Below, in pieces: positions 3,233 through 11,240 of a stretch of 64,000 bases of DNA (position 1 is the stretch's first letter; every line of letters starts with the position of its first letter). Location of the stretch: the NCBI GenBank assembly GCA_017626015.1, contig JAGAJO010000005.1, forward strand, positions 31,627 through 95,626, in the 5' to 3' direction. The notes under the pieces were generated by a model. That model ran no database searches. It was not told the DNA's origin and saw nothing but the letters and a program-made list of their open reading frames with translations. This DNA comes from Ruminococcus sp. (GTDB lineage: Bacteria; Bacillota; Clostridia; Oscillospirales; Ruminococcaceae). A program made the translations under genes and the position numbers.

Positions 3233-5011
3233 ATGAAAACAAAGCATTTTGCAGCGATCGCAGCGGCAGTGTTGATCTCGGTCACACTGGCAGGCTGCGG
3301 AAATAAAATAGAAAAAAACAGTATGATACAGCCCCCTCCCGTGCAGGAGGACGATCCCTCCGTCGAGGATACAAGCAGTCTGACGGAACAGCAGGAGGAT
3401 CCGCCCGAGGAAGCTCCCGTGGAATTTGAGGAAGCTCAGATCACGGCGAAGGAAACGAAATATGTGAAATTCAGCAAGACCTATAACGCCGAAAGCGGCT
3501 CGATATCCGGCAAGGCAGTCCAGGAATCCGAAAGAGAAGGCTACAAGGGCAAGGGCTATGTAACGAACATTTCCAAACAAAGCGACTGGGAAATAGCGTT
3601 CGATCTCCCGGCGTCCCAGTATTATAATATTTCCATTACAGTCGCTTCGGACGATGCGGTGCAGAACGGCATAGCGTTAAACGGCGAAAAAATAAGCGAA
3701 TTCACCACAGGCGGAAAAGGAAAATTTGAGACCTTCACCTTTAAGAATATACATCTTGAGGAAGGGATAAGCAAGGTCTCCATAATCCCGGAAAACGGCG
3801 TGCTGGACGTAGACTATGTAGACGTGGACGCCAGCGAGGATATATCCAAGCTCAGCCTTAAGCTGAAGGATCCGTCCCTTTCAAACAAGGATTCGGGATA
3901 CAATGCCAAGGCTCTGTATAAATATCTGTGCGACAGCTTCGGAAAAACCGTAATTCTCGGACAGTACGACACCATGGGTACCACCTATGAGAGCGATCTG
4001 ATATTCCGCACCACAGGAAAAAAACCGGCGATCCGTTTCGGTGACTTGATGTGGGCGACTGCAAAGGACGGTTCTGCCGGAAGTCTGGAGGACGAGCTTG
4101 CGGCAGCAGAACAGTGGAGCAGCAGCGGCGGGATAGTAGGATATATGTGGAACTGGTACTCCCCCACCGAGCCTGAAAAAGCAGAAAGCTTCTATGCGGA
4201 GAACACATCCTTTGATCTTAAAAAAGCCGTTACAAAAGAAAAAATAGCGGACAAAACTCCCGAGGAGATCCAGAAGCTTGAAAAGGAAGGCAAGATCTCC
4301 AAGGAATGTGCGGCTGTTATCAGGGATATAGACGAAGTATCGGAAAAGCTGGCACGCCTGCGTGACAACGGCACAGCCGTTATCTGGAGACCCTTGCAGG
4401 AGGCGAGCAACGGATACTTCTGGTGGGGCAGCGATGAGGAATCCTATAAATGGCTGTGGAAGCTGCTTTACGAAAGGCAGACCAAATATCATCAGCTCAA
4501 CAACCTTATATGGGTGTGGTCGGCGCAGAATGCAAGCTGGTATGTAGGCGACAGCTACTGCGACGTTCTTTCGGCGGACGTTTACAGCGACTCCGGCAGC
4601 AAGGGAGGACAGGTCAATTTCCTGCTTCATCTGCAAAGCATATCGGCAAACAAGCCCATAGCCATGAGCGAGTGCGGAAGTCTCCCGCAGATACAGAACA
4701 TTGCGGACGAAAAAGCAATGTGGTCATATATCGGACAGTGGGGCGGAAATTTCATCGTTGACGAAAACGGAAAGCTTTCCGAAGAACACAACTCCGAGGC
4801 TGACCTTATTACAATGTATAACAACAACCTTACCGTCACTGCGGACAAGCTCCCCGATTTCATATCAATGGCAAACGAAATAAAGGAGCAGGAAGAAAAA
4901 TCGGCAACAGAGAAAAAGTCCGACGATACCGCAAGTGACAGCGGAAAGGATAAAAAAGACAGCAAAGACAGCAGTACAAGCGATAAAAACAGCGAAAGCA
5001 AAACAGAATAA
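3233..5011 (+). CDS. Lipoprotein with CBM35-like module and GH26 beta-mannanase domain
   Basis: A 592-residue secreted lipoprotein. The signal peptide ends in lipobox LAGC (Cys22), followed by an acidic linker. Residues about 80-200 form a beta-sandwich carbohydrate-binding module of CBM35/CBM6 type (YNAESG... ending DYVDVDA). The GH26 domain occupies about 210-555, with acid/base E390 in WRPLQEASNGYFWWG and nucleophile E480 in MSECGSLP. The last 40 residues are a charged Ser/Lys/Asp tail. Family 26 retains configuration and cleaves beta-mannan. The protein should be tethered to the outer face of the membrane. Ribosome binding site GAGAGGT; co-transcribed with GH95; a terminator follows. Confidence 0.9.
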   Translation: MKTKHFAAIAAAVLISVTLAGCGNKIEKNSMIQPPPVQEDDPSVEDTSSLTEQQEDPPEEAPVEFEEAQITAKETKYVKFSKTYNAESGSISGKAVQESEREGYKGKGYVTNISKQSDWEIAFDLPASQYYNISITVASDDAVQNGIALNGEKISEFTTGGKGKFETFTFKNIHLEEGISKVSIIPENGVLDVDYVDVDASEDISKLSLKLKDPSLSNKDSGYNAKALYKYLCDSFGKTVILGQYDTMGTTYESDLIFRTTGKKPAIRFGDLMWATAKDGSAGSLEDELAAAEQWSSSGGIVGYMWNWYSPTEPEKAESFYAENTSFDLKKAVTKEKIADKTPEEIQKLEKEGKISKECAAVIRDIDEVSEKLARLRDNGTAVIWRPLQEASNGYFWWGSDEESYKWLWKLLYERQTKYHQLNNLIWVWSAQNASWYVGDSYCDVLSADVYSDSGSKGGQVNFLLHLQSISANKPIAMSECGSLPQIQNIADEKAMWSYIGQWGGNFIVDENGKLSEEHNSEADLITMYNNNLTVTADKLPDFISMANEIKEQEEKSATEKKSDDTASDSGKDKKDSKDSSTSDKNSESKTE

Positions 5012-5015
5012 ACAT

Positions 5016-5053
5016 ATCCGGCTTAGCCTTATGCGGTAAAGCCGGATTTTTTT
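5016..5053 (+). terminator. Intrinsic terminator after GH26
   Basis: ATCCGGCTT (5016-5024) pairs with AAGCCGGAT (5039-5047), followed by a run of seven T. Confidence 0.85.
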
Positions 5054-5083
5054 CGTCGTATTGCACAATATTTTCAAATCATC

Positions 5084-5112
5084 TTGAAAAAATGAAAAAG
5101 ATATGATATAAT
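5084..5112 (+). promoter_or_regulatory. Predicted sigma-A promoter of the CE2 esterase gene
   Basis: TTGAAA (5084-5089), a 17-bp spacer and TATAAT (5107-5112), 41 bp upstream of the start codon. With the preceding terminator this makes the esterase a separate transcription unit. Confidence 0.75.
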
Positions 5113-5153
5113 GAGTTTCATATAAGGGGAAAAATAGAAAGGACGTATTATCT

Positions 5154-6608
5154 ATGAAAAATATCAGCAAAAAAATCGTTGCAGGACTTTGCAGCGCTGC
5201 CCTTGCGGCAGGTATGATGTCAATGGTATCGTTTGCAGAGCCGGAGGCTGCCGCAATGAAGTCCTATGAAGCAACAAGTGACTCCGTTAAGCTCATCGGA
5301 CGTACATACAGATACAACGATGACTCCACATGGATCATAAACTCGGCAAGCGGTGTTGAATTCAAATGCACCGGCACATCCGTAAGATTTAATCTCAGAC
5401 AGAGCGGAGATCCTACAAGAATTGCAGTGTATGTAAACGGCAAGCTTTCAAAGCTCGGTTACATCAAGGCAAATGCAAAGAAACCGGTTATCGATGCAGA
5501 GCTTGAGGACGGCGAGAACACCGTTAAGCTTATCAAGCTTTCAGAATCTGCACAGTCGGTCATCGCCATTGACAGCATAGAGATCGACGGCGACGCTCCG
5601 GTTCCTACCGCAGCAAAGGCTCACTCCGTTGAATTTATCGGCGACTCCATTACCTGCGGCTACGGCGCTGACGGAAGCCTGAGGGAAAGCTTCTCAACCA
5701 AAAATGAGAACGCTGCAAAGACATACGCTTATCTGACAGCTCAGAATCTTGATCTTGATTACAGCTTCTTCTCCAGAAGCGGAACGGGTATAATTTCCGG
5801 CTATACCAGCGGCGCAAGCAAGCAGGAAAACAACCTTATGCCCCCCGATTACGGCAAGGTCTGCTTTACATGGAACTGGATCGACGGAGTATGCCCCGCT
5901 GATTATGAGTGGGATTTCTCTCAGTATCAGCCTGAGCTTGTAGTTATAAATCTGGGTACGAACGACAACTCTTACACCAAGGGAGATCCTGACAAGTGCG
6001 CTGAGTTTACCGAGGGCTATGTTGCCTTCATCAAGCAGGTAAGAGAAAACAATCCCAATGCTACCATTCTCTGCACGCTGGGAATCATGGGACAGGAGCT
6101 TTATCCTCAGATCGAGGATGCTGTTGCCGCATACACCGAGGAAACAGGTGATACAAAGGTCGCTTCCTTTATGTTCAGCCAGCAGGACGGCAACACCAAC
6201 GGCTACGGTTCGGATTATCACCCCTCCGAGCAGTCCCACATAGAAGCTTCCGAGGAGCTTACAGCGAAGATCTCCGAGCTTATGGGCTGGGAGACAGCAG
6301 ATGTAACTGAAACAGGTATGGCAGGTACCGACAAGGCTAATGACCTTATCTTTGAGGATCTTCCTGCAACTGATGATCCTTCAAGCTCCGAGGCTGATCC
6401 AAGCAGCTCTGAATCTTCTTCCGAGACTTCGTCAGACGAATCTTCATCTTCTTCAGCAGCTTCGTCTTCCTCATCGAAGGCTTCATCAAGCAGTTCAAAG
6501 GCCGCAGCGTCTTCCACCACTTCTAACCCCTCAACAGGTGCAGCTACAGGACTTGCAGCTATCGCAGTTCTTTGCGGCGCAATAGTTACAACAAAGAGGA
6601 GAAAGTAA
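5154..6608 (+). CDS. CE2-type SGNH carbohydrate esterase with NPxTG wall-anchor tail
   Basis: A 484-residue exported protein. It has a signal peptide (cleavage near VSFA-EP), an N-terminal beta-sandwich (about 35-150), then an SGNH hydrolase domain with the CE2 signature FIGDSITCGYG. The nucleophile is S165, block III is NLGTND, and D354/H356 sit in SDYHPSEQSH. CE2 enzymes deacetylate xylans, mannans and gluco-oligosaccharides. After about residue 395 comes a roughly 60-residue Ser/Ala linker, then N458-P-S-T-G, a hydrophobic helix and KRRK. That is a sorting-signal layout for covalent wall attachment; no sortase gene is in the window. It follows the GH95-GH26 operon and fits joint attack on acetylated mannan. 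Confidence 0.88.
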   Translation: MKNISKKIVAGLCSAALAAGMMSMVSFAEPEAAAMKSYEATSDSVKLIGRTYRYNDDSTWIINSASGVEFKCTGTSVRFNLRQSGDPTRIAVYVNGKLSKLGYIKANAKKPVIDAELEDGENTVKLIKLSESAQSVIAIDSIEIDGDAPVPTAAKAHSVEFIGDSITCGYGADGSLRESFSTKNENAAKTYAYLTAQNLDLDYSFFSRSGTGIISGYTSGASKQENNLMPPDYGKVCFTWNWIDGVCPADYEWDFSQYQPELVVINLGTNDNSYTKGDPDKCAEFTEGYVAFIKQVRENNPNATILCTLGIMGQELYPQIEDAVAAYTEETGDTKVASFMFSQQDGNTNGYGSDYHPSEQSHIEASEELTAKISELMGWETADVTETGMAGTDKANDLIFEDLPATDDPSSSEADPSSSESSSETSSDESSSSSAASSSSSKASSSSSKAAASSTTSNPSTGAATGLAAIAVLCGAIVTTKRRK

Positions 6609-6680: not shown

Positions 6681-7418
6681 TCAGGCGTTTCTTTGGGCAA
6701 TGAGTTTTTTGGAGACGATCACCGCAGCAATAAACTCTGCCAGCACAAAAATGCAGAATACGGCAAAGATAAGCACGCTGTGAGGGATCAGGTCAAAATA
6801 TTCCGGTATCCCGCCGAAAATCTCCTCCAGCCTGCCGTCACTTACGGCTTTTTCGGCAGCTCTGACTGATGCTGTTTTGAAAAGAATATTCATAAAAATA
6901 TGAAAAGCTATTATCATGCCGGAACAGATATACCACCTCTTTTTGCTTGAAACGAAGGTCAGAGGTATATACGCAATGAGCACCGAGACCGCCTGTATCA
7001 GCGGCAGGATACTGCCGAGAGTCACCCCTGTGTCAGGAAAACTTGAGCGCATGACCGAAGCAGCCTCCGATGGACCGCAGCTTACATAACCGCAAAGAAT
7101 AAGCGCTGCGCAAAGCCATGCAAGCGCAATAAGCAATTCCGTAACCAGATTTATTATAACATACCTTACATATCTGCTCTTCTTCATAGGTATACAGTAA
7201 GAAAAAGAAGGTCTGTTCACAATGCTGTCGTAATAGACATACATACTGAACAAAGAAAAATAAATAAGTATAGCAAAAAAATTCAGCGATGAGGAGATAT
7301 AGAAGCTTGCATAAACCAGAACATTTATTGCAAATGCAATAAGATATAGCGAAAAACCTCGTCCACTGGCATTATCAAGCCTGACCGCTGTCTGAAACCG
7401 TCTGTACGTCATATTCAT
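6681..7418 (-). CDS. ABC-2 type transporter permease
   Basis: A 245-residue membrane protein with about six hydrophobic helices and a basic N-terminus, weakly conserved in sequence. It is one nucleotide downstream of the ABC ATPase gene and is the last gene of the regulator-ATPase-permease operon. This order is typical of YtrA-regulated exporters that respond to cell-wall-active peptides. The substrate cannot be told from sequence. Confidence 0.75.
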   Translation of the reverse strand: MNMTYRRFQTAVRLDNASGRGFSLYLIAFAINVLVYASFYISSSLNFFAILIYFSLFSMYVYYDSIVNRPSFSYCIPMKKSRYVRYVIINLVTELLIALAWLCAALILCGYVSCGPSEAASVMRSSFPDTGVTLGSILPLIQAVSVLIAYIPLTFVSSKKRWYICSGMIIAFHIFMNILFKTASVRAAEKAVSDGRLEEIFGGIPEYFDLIPHSVLIFAVFCIFVLAEFIAAVIVSKKLIAQRNA

Positions 7419-7419
7419 T

Positions 7420-8268
7420 CTAGGCTCTCCTTTCTGTAAAATGAAGCATTATTTCTTCAATAGTCGGAATGACCGCAGTGACCCCGGGTCTGCTGAATAT
7501 CTTCTCATCATCGGTAAGAGCCTCTACCCCGAAGGAGTTTTCATGTACGCCTATAAGCTTCCCTGTATCTATCGTGGAAAGTATGCTCTTATCTGTGCGT
7601 ATGAGCCTGTATCTGTCCTGAAGATCGACCTTGCTTTCGCTGAATACTATTTTCCCGTCGTCTATCAGAGTTATATAGTCTCCGATTTTGTCCAGATCAC
7701 CGGTTATATGCGTCGAGAGCATGACGGTATGCTCTTCGTCCATCATAAAATCCGAGATCAGATCTATTATCTCAGATCTGTCGGCGGGGTCTATACCTGT
7801 GGTAGGTTCGTCAAGGATAAGCACTGACGGTCTCATGCTCATAGCCGCAATAAGCTGCAATTTCTTTTTCATTCCAAAGGAAAGCTTAGATATCCGCTTA
7901 TATCTGTCTATTCTGAAAAAATCAAGATAAGTGTTAAAAAAATGGCTGTCAAAATCGGGACGTATCTTCATAAAAAGCTTTTCCAGCTTACCGACTTTGA
8001 AATAGTCATTATAAATCAACTTGTCGAACACTACAGCCAGATCGGAGAAAAATTTCACCCTGTCCTCACTGACGGTATTGCCGTTGATCCTTATTTCTCC
8101 TGCCTTTTTTTCAGTACAGTCGGCTATAGAGTTTATCAGCGTGCTTTTTCCTGCTCCGTTGCGTCCGATCAGACCCATAACAACGCCGGCAGGCACGTCG
8201 ATACTGACGTTGTCCAAGGTAAAGCCCTCCATCTGCACAGTAAGATTTTTTACCTCTATTCCGTTCAT
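7420..8268 (-). CDS. ABC transporter ATP-binding protein
   Basis: 282 residues with all nucleotide-binding motifs: Walker A GLIGRNGAGKST, a signature-like LSFGMKKKLQL, Walker B VLILDEPTTGID and the H-loop in LSTHI. The signature is LSFGM rather than LSGGQ, as in many ABC-2 exporter ATPases. A C-terminal extension of about 60 residues follows. The start ATG overlaps the stop of the YtrA-type regulator (ATGA, 8265-8268), so the two are translationally coupled. Confidence 0.9.
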   Translation of the reverse strand: MNGIEVKNLTVQMEGFTLDNVSIDVPAGVVMGLIGRNGAGKSTLINSIADCTEKKAGEIRINGNTVSEDRVKFFSDLAVVFDKLIYNDYFKVGKLEKLFMKIRPDFDSHFFNTYLDFFRIDRYKRISKLSFGMKKKLQLIAAMSMRPSVLILDEPTTGIDPADRSEIIDLISDFMMDEEHTVMLSTHITGDLDKIGDYITLIDDGKIVFSESKVDLQDRYRLIRTDKSILSTIDTGKLIGVHENSFGVEALTDDEKIFSRPGVTAVIPTIEEIMLHFTERRA

Positions 8269-8654
8269 TGTTCCATTTCTCCTTTTTCTTTATATATTTT
8301 TTCGATCAGCATTTCTATATCCTCCCGGGAGATCGAATACTGCCCGGCAAGGTTCGAAACGTCCCGCAGCTGCTCCTCTATCATCTGCAAATGCGCCGCT
8401 TTTACGTCATCTTCGTTTATCTCCCCTACAAAAACCCCCTTGCCGGGGTGGCTGACAAGCACACCCTCCCCGCACAGATCGTCATATGCCCGCTTACTGG
8501 TAATGACCCCGACCTTTAACTCCTTTGCAAGAGTCCGTATTGAGGGAAGCTGCTCACCGGGTTTCAGATCGCCGCTGAATACCTGTTCCTTTATCTGCTG
8601 TTTTATCTGTTCGTATATCGGTATCTGCGACAGAGCAGAAACCATTAGCTTCAT
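8265..8654 (-). CDS. GntR/YtrA-family transcriptional regulator
   Basis: 129 residues. The N-terminal winged helix has the GntR signature IYEQIKQQIKEQVFSGDLKPG and LPSIRTLAKELKV. The C-terminal part is short, as in the YtrA subfamily, instead of a ligand-binding domain. ATG 8654 is chosen because AAAGGAGGT lies 7 nt upstream; longer starts have no such site. It heads the ABC operon and probably represses it through the dyad at 8708-8749. Confidence 0.9.
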   Translation of the reverse strand: MKLMVSALSQIPIYEQIKQQIKEQVFSGDLKPGEQLPSIRTLAKELKVGVITSKRAYDDLCGEGVLVSHPGKGVFVGEINEDDVKAAHLQMIEEQLRDVSNLAGQYSISREDIEMLIEKIYKEKGEMEQ

Positions 8655-8707
8655 AACAATACCTCCTTTCCTTTGTTCTGCACATATTTTTTGTGGCACT
8701 GTATCTG

Positions 8708-8970: not shown

Positions 8971-9753
8971 ATGAAAAAATTTATTGCAGGCATGGCGGCT
9001 TTTGCCGCTTCGGCTGTTATGCTGACAGGCTGCGGTGTTCCCGCCAACGAAGTACACTCTGTTGAAGATCTTAACGGAAAGACTATCGGCGTTCAGCTGG
9101 GAACTACCGGAGATACTCTTGCTGGAGATATCGAGGACGCTAAGGTTGAAAAGTACAACAAGGGCGCTGACGCTATCCAGGCTCTTAAGCAGGGCAAGGT
9201 GGATGCAGTAATTATCGACGCCGAGCCTGCCGGAGTTTTCGTTGATAAGAACGAGGATCTGGAAATACTTGACGAAGCATTCGCAGAGGAAGAATACGCT
9301 ATTGCAATGAAGCTTGACAATACCGAGCTTCAGACGGAGATCAACGGCGCTCTTAAGGAGCTTAAGGACGACGGAACTCTCCAGAAGATCAAGGACAATT
9401 ACGAAAGCGATGACGCAGGAAAAAGCGCTTATACCTCTCCCGAGGGAGTTGACCGCAGCAAGGGCACGCTGGTCATGGCTACAAACGCCGAATTTCCTCC
9501 CTACGAAAGCAAGGACGGAGACAAGATAATCGGCTTTGACGTAGATATGATGCAGGCTGTATGCGACAAGCTTGGCTACGATCTCCAGATAGACGATATG
9601 GCGTTCGATTCCATCATTCCCGCTGTTCAGTCGGGAAAAGCCGATGTAGGAGTTGCCGGTATGACGGCAACCGAGGACAGAAAGAAAAACGTGCTGTTCT
9701 CAGACACCTATGCTGTTACAAATCAGGTCATCGTTGTAAGAGCAGACAAGTAG
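8971..9753 (+). CDS. Amino-acid ABC transporter substrate-binding lipoprotein with circularly permuted domain order
   Basis: 260 residues with a lipoprotein signal (LTGC, Cys21). The mature protein is a polar-amino-acid binding protein (SBP family 3), but its halves are swapped. Residues 31-145 (VEDLNGKTIGVQLGTTGDT to LKDDGTLQKIKDNY) are what normally forms the second half. Residues 163-260 (KGTLVMATNAEFPPYE to NQVIVVRADK) are what normally forms the first half. A Gly/Ser/Pro-containing linker (146-162) joins the old C- and N-termini. The ligand-carboxylate arginine is kept (R237 in MTATEDRKK), so the protein should still bind. Permease and ATPase genes follow, so it belongs to a complete uptake system, probably for a polar amino acid. 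Confidence 0.88.
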   Translation: MKKFIAGMAAFAASAVMLTGCGVPANEVHSVEDLNGKTIGVQLGTTGDTLAGDIEDAKVEKYNKGADAIQALKQGKVDAVIIDAEPAGVFVDKNEDLEILDEAFAEEEYAIAMKLDNTELQTEINGALKELKDDGTLQKIKDNYESDDAGKSAYTSPEGVDRSKGTLVMATNAEFPPYESKDGDKIIGFDVDMMQAVCDKLGYDLQIDDMAFDSIIPAVQSGKADVGVAGMTATEDRKKNVLFSDTYAVTNQVIVVRADK

Positions 9754-9817: not shown

Positions 9818-10528
9818 ATGACTGGAAGTGTTGAATTGGATAATTTTGTAGCGAGCTTTAAGCAAAATTTCATCGAAGAGAACCGCTGGCAGTATCTTGT
9901 TAACGGTCTCGGCACCACCCTTTTCATTACATTTTTTGCCGTGCTGCTCGGCATGATCCTGGGCTTTCTGGTAGCTATCGTGCGCTCGACCCACGATAAG
10001 ACAGGCAAAATGAAAGCACTTAACATTATCTGCAAGATATACCTCACCGTTATCAGAGGCACACCTGTAGTCGTTCAACTGCTGATAATTTACTTTGTTA
10101 TCTTTGCAAGCGTCCCGATAAGCAAGAATTTCGTAGCGGTCATAGCTTTCGGAATAAATTCAGGCGCATATGTGGCGGAGATCGTCCGTTCCGGTATTAT
10201 GTCCATCGACAACGGTCAGCTTGAAGCGGGCAGGAGCCTTGGTCTGAATTACCGTCAGACAATGATCTCGGTCATTATTCCGCAGGCGTTCAAAAACGTG
10301 CTTCCCGCACTTGCCAACGAATGCATCGTGCTGCTCAAGGAAACCTCGGTAGCAGGCTACATTGCCATACAGGATCTGACTAAGGGAGGAGACATTATAC
10401 GCTCCCAGACCTTTTCGGCGTTTATGCCGCTGATATCCGTAGCTGTGATCTATCTTATAATGGTAATGATCCTGACAAGACTGGTATCCAAGCTGGAAAG
10501 GAGGCTGTCCGCAAGTGATAGACGTTAG
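9818..10528 (+). CDS. Amino-acid ABC transporter permease (HisM/GlnP type)
   Basis: 236 residues, the usual length, with five or six membrane helices. The ABC contact (EAA) loop is [20 protein letters not shown], and the N-terminal [11 protein letters not shown] is typical of the polar-amino-acid family. ATG 9818 has a weak ribosome binding site; TTG 9836 in the same frame is a possible alternative. The gene end overlaps the ATPase start by 14 nt. Confidence 0.9.
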
Positions 10529-11240
10529 AGGACTGACAAAAGCCTTCGGAGACAACGAGGTACTTAAGGGCATAGACGAGCATATATCCAAAGGGGAAAA
10601 GGTCGTTATCGTGGGACCTTCAGGCTCGGGAAAATCCACATTTTTAAGATGTCTCAATCTTATGGAGATCCCTACCAGCGGAGAGATAATCTTCGAGGGC
10701 TCCGAGATCACCGGAGCATCGGAGCATGAGATCAATATGATCCGCCGCAGAATGGGAATGGTTTTCCAGCACTTTAATCTTTTCCCGCATCTTACCATAC
10801 AGAAAAACATTACGCTGGCTCCTGTAAAGCTGAAGCTCATGTCACAGGAGGAAGCGGATAAAAGGGCTATGGAGCTGCTGGAACGAGTAGGTCTGCCGGA
10901 CAAGGCTCAATCCTACCCGTCTATGCTTTCGGGCGGTCAGAAGCAGCGTATAGCTATAGCACGTTCCCTTGCAATGAATCCGGACGTTATGCTGTTTGAC
11001 GAACCTACCTCCGCACTTGACCCCGAAATGGTAGGCGAGGTACTGGAGCTTATGAAACAGCTTGCCAACGACGGAATGACCATGATAGTGGTAACTCACG
11101 AAATGGGTTTTGCAAGAGAAGTAGCGTCCAGAGTACTGTTTATGGCAGACGGTTACGTGCTTGAACAGAACACTCCGGAGAAATTTTTTGCAAATCCCGA
11201 AAATCCCAGACTTAAGGAATTTTTGTCAAAGATACTTTAA
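10515..11240 (+). CDS. Amino-acid ABC transporter ATP-binding protein (GlnQ type)
   Basis: 241 residues with Walker [10 protein letters not shown], signature [16 protein letters not shown], Walker [15 protein letters not shown] and H-loop [12 protein letters not shown], all typical of GlnQ/HisP ATPases. It starts at GTG 10515 inside the end of the permease gene. It powers import with the permuted binding protein and the permease. No clear terminator follows. Confidence 0.95.

Follow-up and report, generated by a model that had tools for sequence, protein, structure and literature searches.

A circularly permuted family-3 amino-acid-binding lipoprotein in Ruminococcus, and signs of repeated permutation of its family in Clostridia

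The stretch analysed here, hereafter the window, comprises 64,000 nucleotides of a Ruminococcus sp. contig (JAGAJO010000005.1, positions 31,627 to 95,626). On its forward strand, positions 8971-9753 form an open frame of 260 amino acids that encodes a family-3 solute-binding protein (SBP) whose two halves are exchanged. To describe its layout we divided the SBP domain into three segments, A (the first part of lobe 1), B (lobe 2) and C (the second hinge strand and the lobe-1 tail), so that normal proteins read A-B-C and the window protein B-C-A. The gene and the two that follow it are organised as listed below.

8971..9753, forward: circularly permuted family-3 amino-acid-binding lipoprotein, order B-C-A, 260 amino acids (profile and PDB alignments, AlphaFold2 model)
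8971..9033, forward: signal peptide and lipobox, ending at Cys21 (codon 9031-9033; present in 56 of 56 aligned B-C-A relatives), the putative site of lipidation
9046..9255, forward: segment B, lobe 2, residues 26-95, normally in the second half; contains Asp83 (alignment; Asp83 in 56 of 56)
9256..9414, forward: segment C, hinge strand 2 and lobe-1 tail, residues 96-148 (alignment; model strand 97-113)
9403..9459, forward: linker from the old C-terminus to the old N-terminus, residues 145-163, 19 residues (edges of the hidden Markov model matches; its ends overlap the cut-outs taken as segments C and A)
9454..9738, forward: segment A, first part of lobe 1, residues 162-256, normally N-terminal; contains Arg237 (alignment, 56 of 56, model)
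9818..10528, forward: permease subunit, BPD_transp_1, with GlnP as best NCBIfam model, under its cut-off (Pfam/NCBIfam)
10515..11240, forward: ATPase subunit, ABC_tran, with GlnQ as best NCBIfam model, under its cut-off (Pfam/NCBIfam)

The family assignment is secure, as the 260-residue frame matches SBP_bac_3 (Pfam PF00497) with 124.7 bits against a curated cut-off of 26.4. The match, however, is split into two stretches instead of running continuously in the normal order, and the usual second half (residues 26-148) precedes the usual first half (residues 162-256). A sequence search of the PDB matched 114 chains, and all three of the alignments printed show two swapped stretches; in chain 4zv1, residues 163-257 of the query align with residues 8-103 and residues 27-143 with residues 108-229 (domain E-values for the two stretches, 1.9e-24 and 6.9e-20). 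Restoring the halves to their normal order gives one continuous match to SBP_bac_3 and likewise to the leading NCBIfam models. Taken together, the swapped alignments and the single stretch obtained after reordering put the permutation far beyond chance and confirm that 8971-9753 encodes a circularly permuted family-3 SBP of order B-C-A. The initial annotation had proposed just such an exchange, and its coordinates, its placing of the swap at the first hinge crossover and its retained ligand residue Arg237 all agree with the sequence; Arg237, like Cys21 and Asp83, is invariant across the 56 aligned relatives. More specific models score below their curated cut-offs, both for TIGR01096 (Lys/Arg/Orn-binding; 154 of 256 bits, 169 once reordered) and for NF007029 (GlnH; 129 of 303 bits, 141 once reordered), and for this reason the ligand is not nameable from them.

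The expectation that both lobes could still fold was borne out by structure prediction, in which AlphaFold2 returned a confident two-lobed model of the type II (cluster F) SBP fold (predicted local distance difference test score, pLDDT, 95.1). Sequence and predicted secondary structure together show a chain in which a short linker connects the former termini and which is cut at the first hinge crossover, leaving each lobe as one continuous stretch. Where type II proteins usually have two covalent crossings between the lobes, the predicted structure retains one (strand 97-113), and the other hinge strand (248-257), in which segment A ends, now forms the C-terminal end of the chain. The lipobox cysteine is residue 21 and lobe 2 begins about six residues after it. 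A signal peptide with a lipobox and adjacent permease and ATPase genes are what is found at the receptor of an amino-acid importer of the ATP-binding cassette (ABC) type, and we assign a probability of roughly 0.85 to the reading that the window gene encodes the lipid-anchored receptor of a polar amino-acid ABC importer and is a natural B-C-A permutant of a kind that recurs in its family in Clostridia. Such a receptor would still act as a Venus fly-trap, with Arg237 gripping the carboxylate of the ligand and Asp83, whose role we assume by analogy with HisJ and GlnH, the amine. The ligand, probably a polar amino acid, would then be passed to the adjacent permease and ATPase, while the tether would run through lobe 2 near the hinge instead of lobe 1. 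The ratios of nonsynonymous to synonymous substitution rates (dN/dS) calculated for two pairs, 0.04 and 0.12 (YN00; dS above 1), are low, which fits selection for function.

The five matches obtained in the window's own genome fall at the window gene and at two additional SBP loci, which lie on other contigs and have their halves in the normal order (parsed as A-B-C). Within the genus, 15 of 29 genomes, counting that of the window, carry a match that spans both halves; the one in G026, close to the end of a contig, reaches no further than query residue 219. Six of the loci studied (L061-L066) come from Ruminococcus sp. metagenome-assembled genomes. Beyond the genus, such matches were found in about 90 of 396 genomes drawn from the family (E up to 1e-28), in at least 27 of 394 from the order and in at least 23 of 391 from the class (own genome included and E up to 1e-38 in both); these are hand counts of table rows, those for order and class are lower bounds, and the draws share some genomes. 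Within the class the matches represent 16 family codes. A draw of 398 phylum genomes (E up to 1e-30) yielded three from outside the class, namely G1225 and, with a different cut, G1241 and G1422. Spread by plasmids was considered and rejected: among 72,556 plasmid records the search (E up to 1e-20) hit one, which encodes an SBP/permease protein with 31% identity. In a control search of the phylum of Helicobacter pullorum, 60 of 150 genomes matched (E up to 1e-14) and, with this one query in this one phylum, no permutant was found; the both-halves matches in two Helicobacter relatives (L236 and L237) contain stops and resolve into two normal SBP genes in the same frame, 12 bases apart.

Many of these sequences come from metagenome-assembled genomes, which would be the main reason to suspect an error of assembly or gene calling. 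Yet the same order is found in 111 B-C-A units less than 90% identical to one another and in genomes that consist of one contig (G144 and G211, for example), and the linkers are of constant length and dN/dS is low. With the order repeated across so many genomes we reject an assembly artefact and regard an artefact of either kind as having next to no chance of being the explanation.

Parsing of 224 open reading frames showed that B-C-A is not the only rearranged form. Of these, 135 have the order of the window protein, 53 are normal and 14 are C-A-B, while the remainder include rarer cuts and tandem units. The C-A-B proteins (L176-L189, 14 genomes) represent a second permutation, cut at hinge 2, and one of them was modelled at pLDDT 89.8. 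Two related genomes outside the class show a third type of cut, which falls within lobe 2 (L194:2890-3696 and L195:654-1550), and at least four different cut points are present overall. In addition, arrays of two to five tandem permuted SBP units are fused to a permease domain, in proteins of up to 1544 amino acids (L226:2247-6098, L227:2011-5082, L220:649-5283 and L067:5980-8205), and tandem arrays of normal order occur in L216-L218, with about 13-17 residues between units. The linker from C to A in B-C-A proteins measures 14-25 residues. The median tether length is 8 residues for B-C-A, 7.5 for C-A-B and 12 for A-B-C, with overlapping ranges and no clear rule.

These parsed proteins also bear on how the permuted chain is assembled. 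With a short linker and a hinge-1 strand that is now a chain end, the protein might function only as a domain-swapped dimer, in which the A segment of each chain is completed by the B-C part of its partner and two anchored chains form two binding sites; in the tandem B-C-A arrays, likewise, an A segment could pair with the next B-C as in the normal order. The single-chain model is nevertheless confident, the 135 parsed B-C-A frames carry one unit each, and the C-to-A linker resembles the spacers of normal tandem arrays, and we consider an obligate dimer improbable.

To follow the history of the order, the segments of all units were put in one order before tree building. A first quick tree held 147 rows; a careful tree held 85, with B-C-A sequences thinned at 66% identity and with 15 long or divergent rows (6 A-B-C, 4 B-C-A and 5 tandem) and 20 permuted tandem units left out. 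The 85-row tree needs 11 changes of order, 7 of them for B-C-A (bootstrap range 6-8), and well-supported branches force at least 4 changes for B-C-A, 5 for A-B-C and 2 for C-A-B. B-C-A forms a single clade in none of 200 bootstrap trees, and as one clade it is rejected by the approximately unbiased (AU) test whether all segments (p 4.7e-6), segment A by itself (p 0.002) or a 31-row core selected with the tree already in view (p 1e-7) are used. The initial annotation had asked whether homologues of the same order exist and mark a clade: they do exist, within the genus and beyond it, and as a single clade they are rejected. Segment A alone needs 12 changes and B and C together 14, while a tree of the permease and ATPase, independent of the SBP, needs 15 (found for 71 of the 85 rows; a quick tree with a simpler model). 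One sister pair of different order, L169 (B-C-A) and L212 (A-B-C), is supported at 100/98 in the SBP tree and at 100 in the permease/ATPase tree, and the closest pair of different order, L235 (A-B-C) and L169, is 72% identical. The rejection of a single B-C-A clade and the many changes in the permease/ATPase tree indicate that the order changed repeatedly, and suggest that, within Clostridia, this transporter family underwent permutation on several occasions and at differing cut points.

A single, ancient origin of B-C-A, with the scattered normal genes as reversions or the trees mixed by recombination between paralogues, would draw on the fact that the trees give no direction of change and thus cannot separate gain from loss. 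C-A-B as one clade is not rejected (p 0.117), and one B-C-A protein, L130, could be a paralogue hybrid, with its B and C closest to L208 and its A to L207. Against this, the one-clade tests on all segments and on A alone, the 15 changes of the permease/ATPase tree and the variety of cut points all argue for repeated permutation, and we judge a single origin unlikely, though less so than the obligate dimer.

The simplest route to these orders would be an in-frame tandem duplication of the SBP domain (A-B-C-A-B-C), followed by loss of the outer segments, which would leave B-C-A or C-A-B depending on where the new ends fall. The spacers of the normal tandem arrays are close in length to the C-to-A linkers, and the in-frame normal gene pairs 12 bases apart show that such neighbours exist as a possible start for fusion and permutation. 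As for the duplication intermediate, relatives do have tandem arrays, and no array was found that is the direct ancestor of the window gene.

Compared with GlnH, HisJ, ArtJ, Thermotoga ArgBP and AncQR (family 3, type II, cluster F), the window protein shares the family, the predicted fold and the position as the lipoprotein of a permease/ATPase operon. It also has the conserved Arg and Asp of family-3 SBPs, which presumably contact the ligand. In contrast to proteins of the GlnH/HisJ type, its halves are exchanged, its termini lie at hinge 1, the lobes are joined by one crossing and the anchor leads into lobe 2.

Permuted SBPs have been described before. A circular-permutation relation between the glycine-betaine-binding proteins OpuAC (2b4l) and ProX (1r9l, 1sw1) is reported to have emerged from a structure search in 2008 (the CPSARST paper, PMC2395249). 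That relation, also among type II proteins, was drawn from structures at less than 24% identity, as opposed to the 72% reached here. OpuAC and ProX belong to another sequence family; no match of the window protein to PF04069 (the OpuAC family) is listed at E up to 10, although the HMMER filters may drop very weak matches. The rearrangement is of the same kind as in the glycine-betaine-binding proteins, but it occurs in a different family, recurrently, with several cut points and between forms close in sequence. TpMglB-2 (Tp0684) of Treponema pallidum, a lipid-anchored natural permutant classed as 'type Ic', has a type I fold with three hinge crossings to which the permutation adds a fourth, whereas the type II window protein has lost one; according to the authors of that work, the permuted topology might be favoured by membrane anchoring (PMC4990184). 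The window protein is assigned to SBP_bac_3, and no type I (cluster B) family is among the four families listed at E up to 10. In GlnPQ, tandem SBPs are reported to be fused to the permease (PMC8025302; 6h30); each unit is a normal A-B-C, and a slice across the unit junction reads B-C-A. Among the best 60 of 212 chains matched by the B-C-A profile, this entry alone is matched over both halves, and no solved structure of a permuted family-3 SBP is found among those 60 or among the best 60 of 95 chains matched by the C-A-B profile. In open full-text literature, the matches listed include no report of permuted family-3 SBPs or of repeated permutation within one SBP family; subscription papers lie mostly outside this search, and an unlisted report of permuted family-3 SBPs is possible.

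The permuted SBPs of the earlier papers cited above are deep relations recognised at the level of structure. The close natural pairs found here, which lie beside related permease and ATPase genes and include cuts at both hinges, make the effects of hinge connectivity and anchor position testable. Tentatively, the family-3 SBPs of Clostridia might be viewed as a natural permutation experiment, with A-B-C, B-C-A, C-A-B and rarer forms cut mostly at the hinges, in which selection could favour hinge cuts because having one crossing, or an anchor on the hinge side, alters the opening, stability or docking of tethered receptors. Two practical consequences are that one-stretch profiles and sequential structure searches can misread permuted receptors, and that the natural cut sites, which preserve the predicted fold, are of use in biosensor design.

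Other genes surround these receptors. Beside one C-A-B receptor, the frame in the permease position (L183:3881-4981) begins with an apparent zinc-ribbon segment (CxxC...CxxC), and the corresponding frame of L186 is also enlarged. In the window, a GntR regulator, an ABC ATPase and a protein without a Pfam match (6681-8699, reverse strand) lie just upstream of, and divergent from, the SBP operon, preceded at 3233-6608 (forward strand) by a GH26 glycoside hydrolase with a CBM35 module and then a carbohydrate-esterase-2-like protein.
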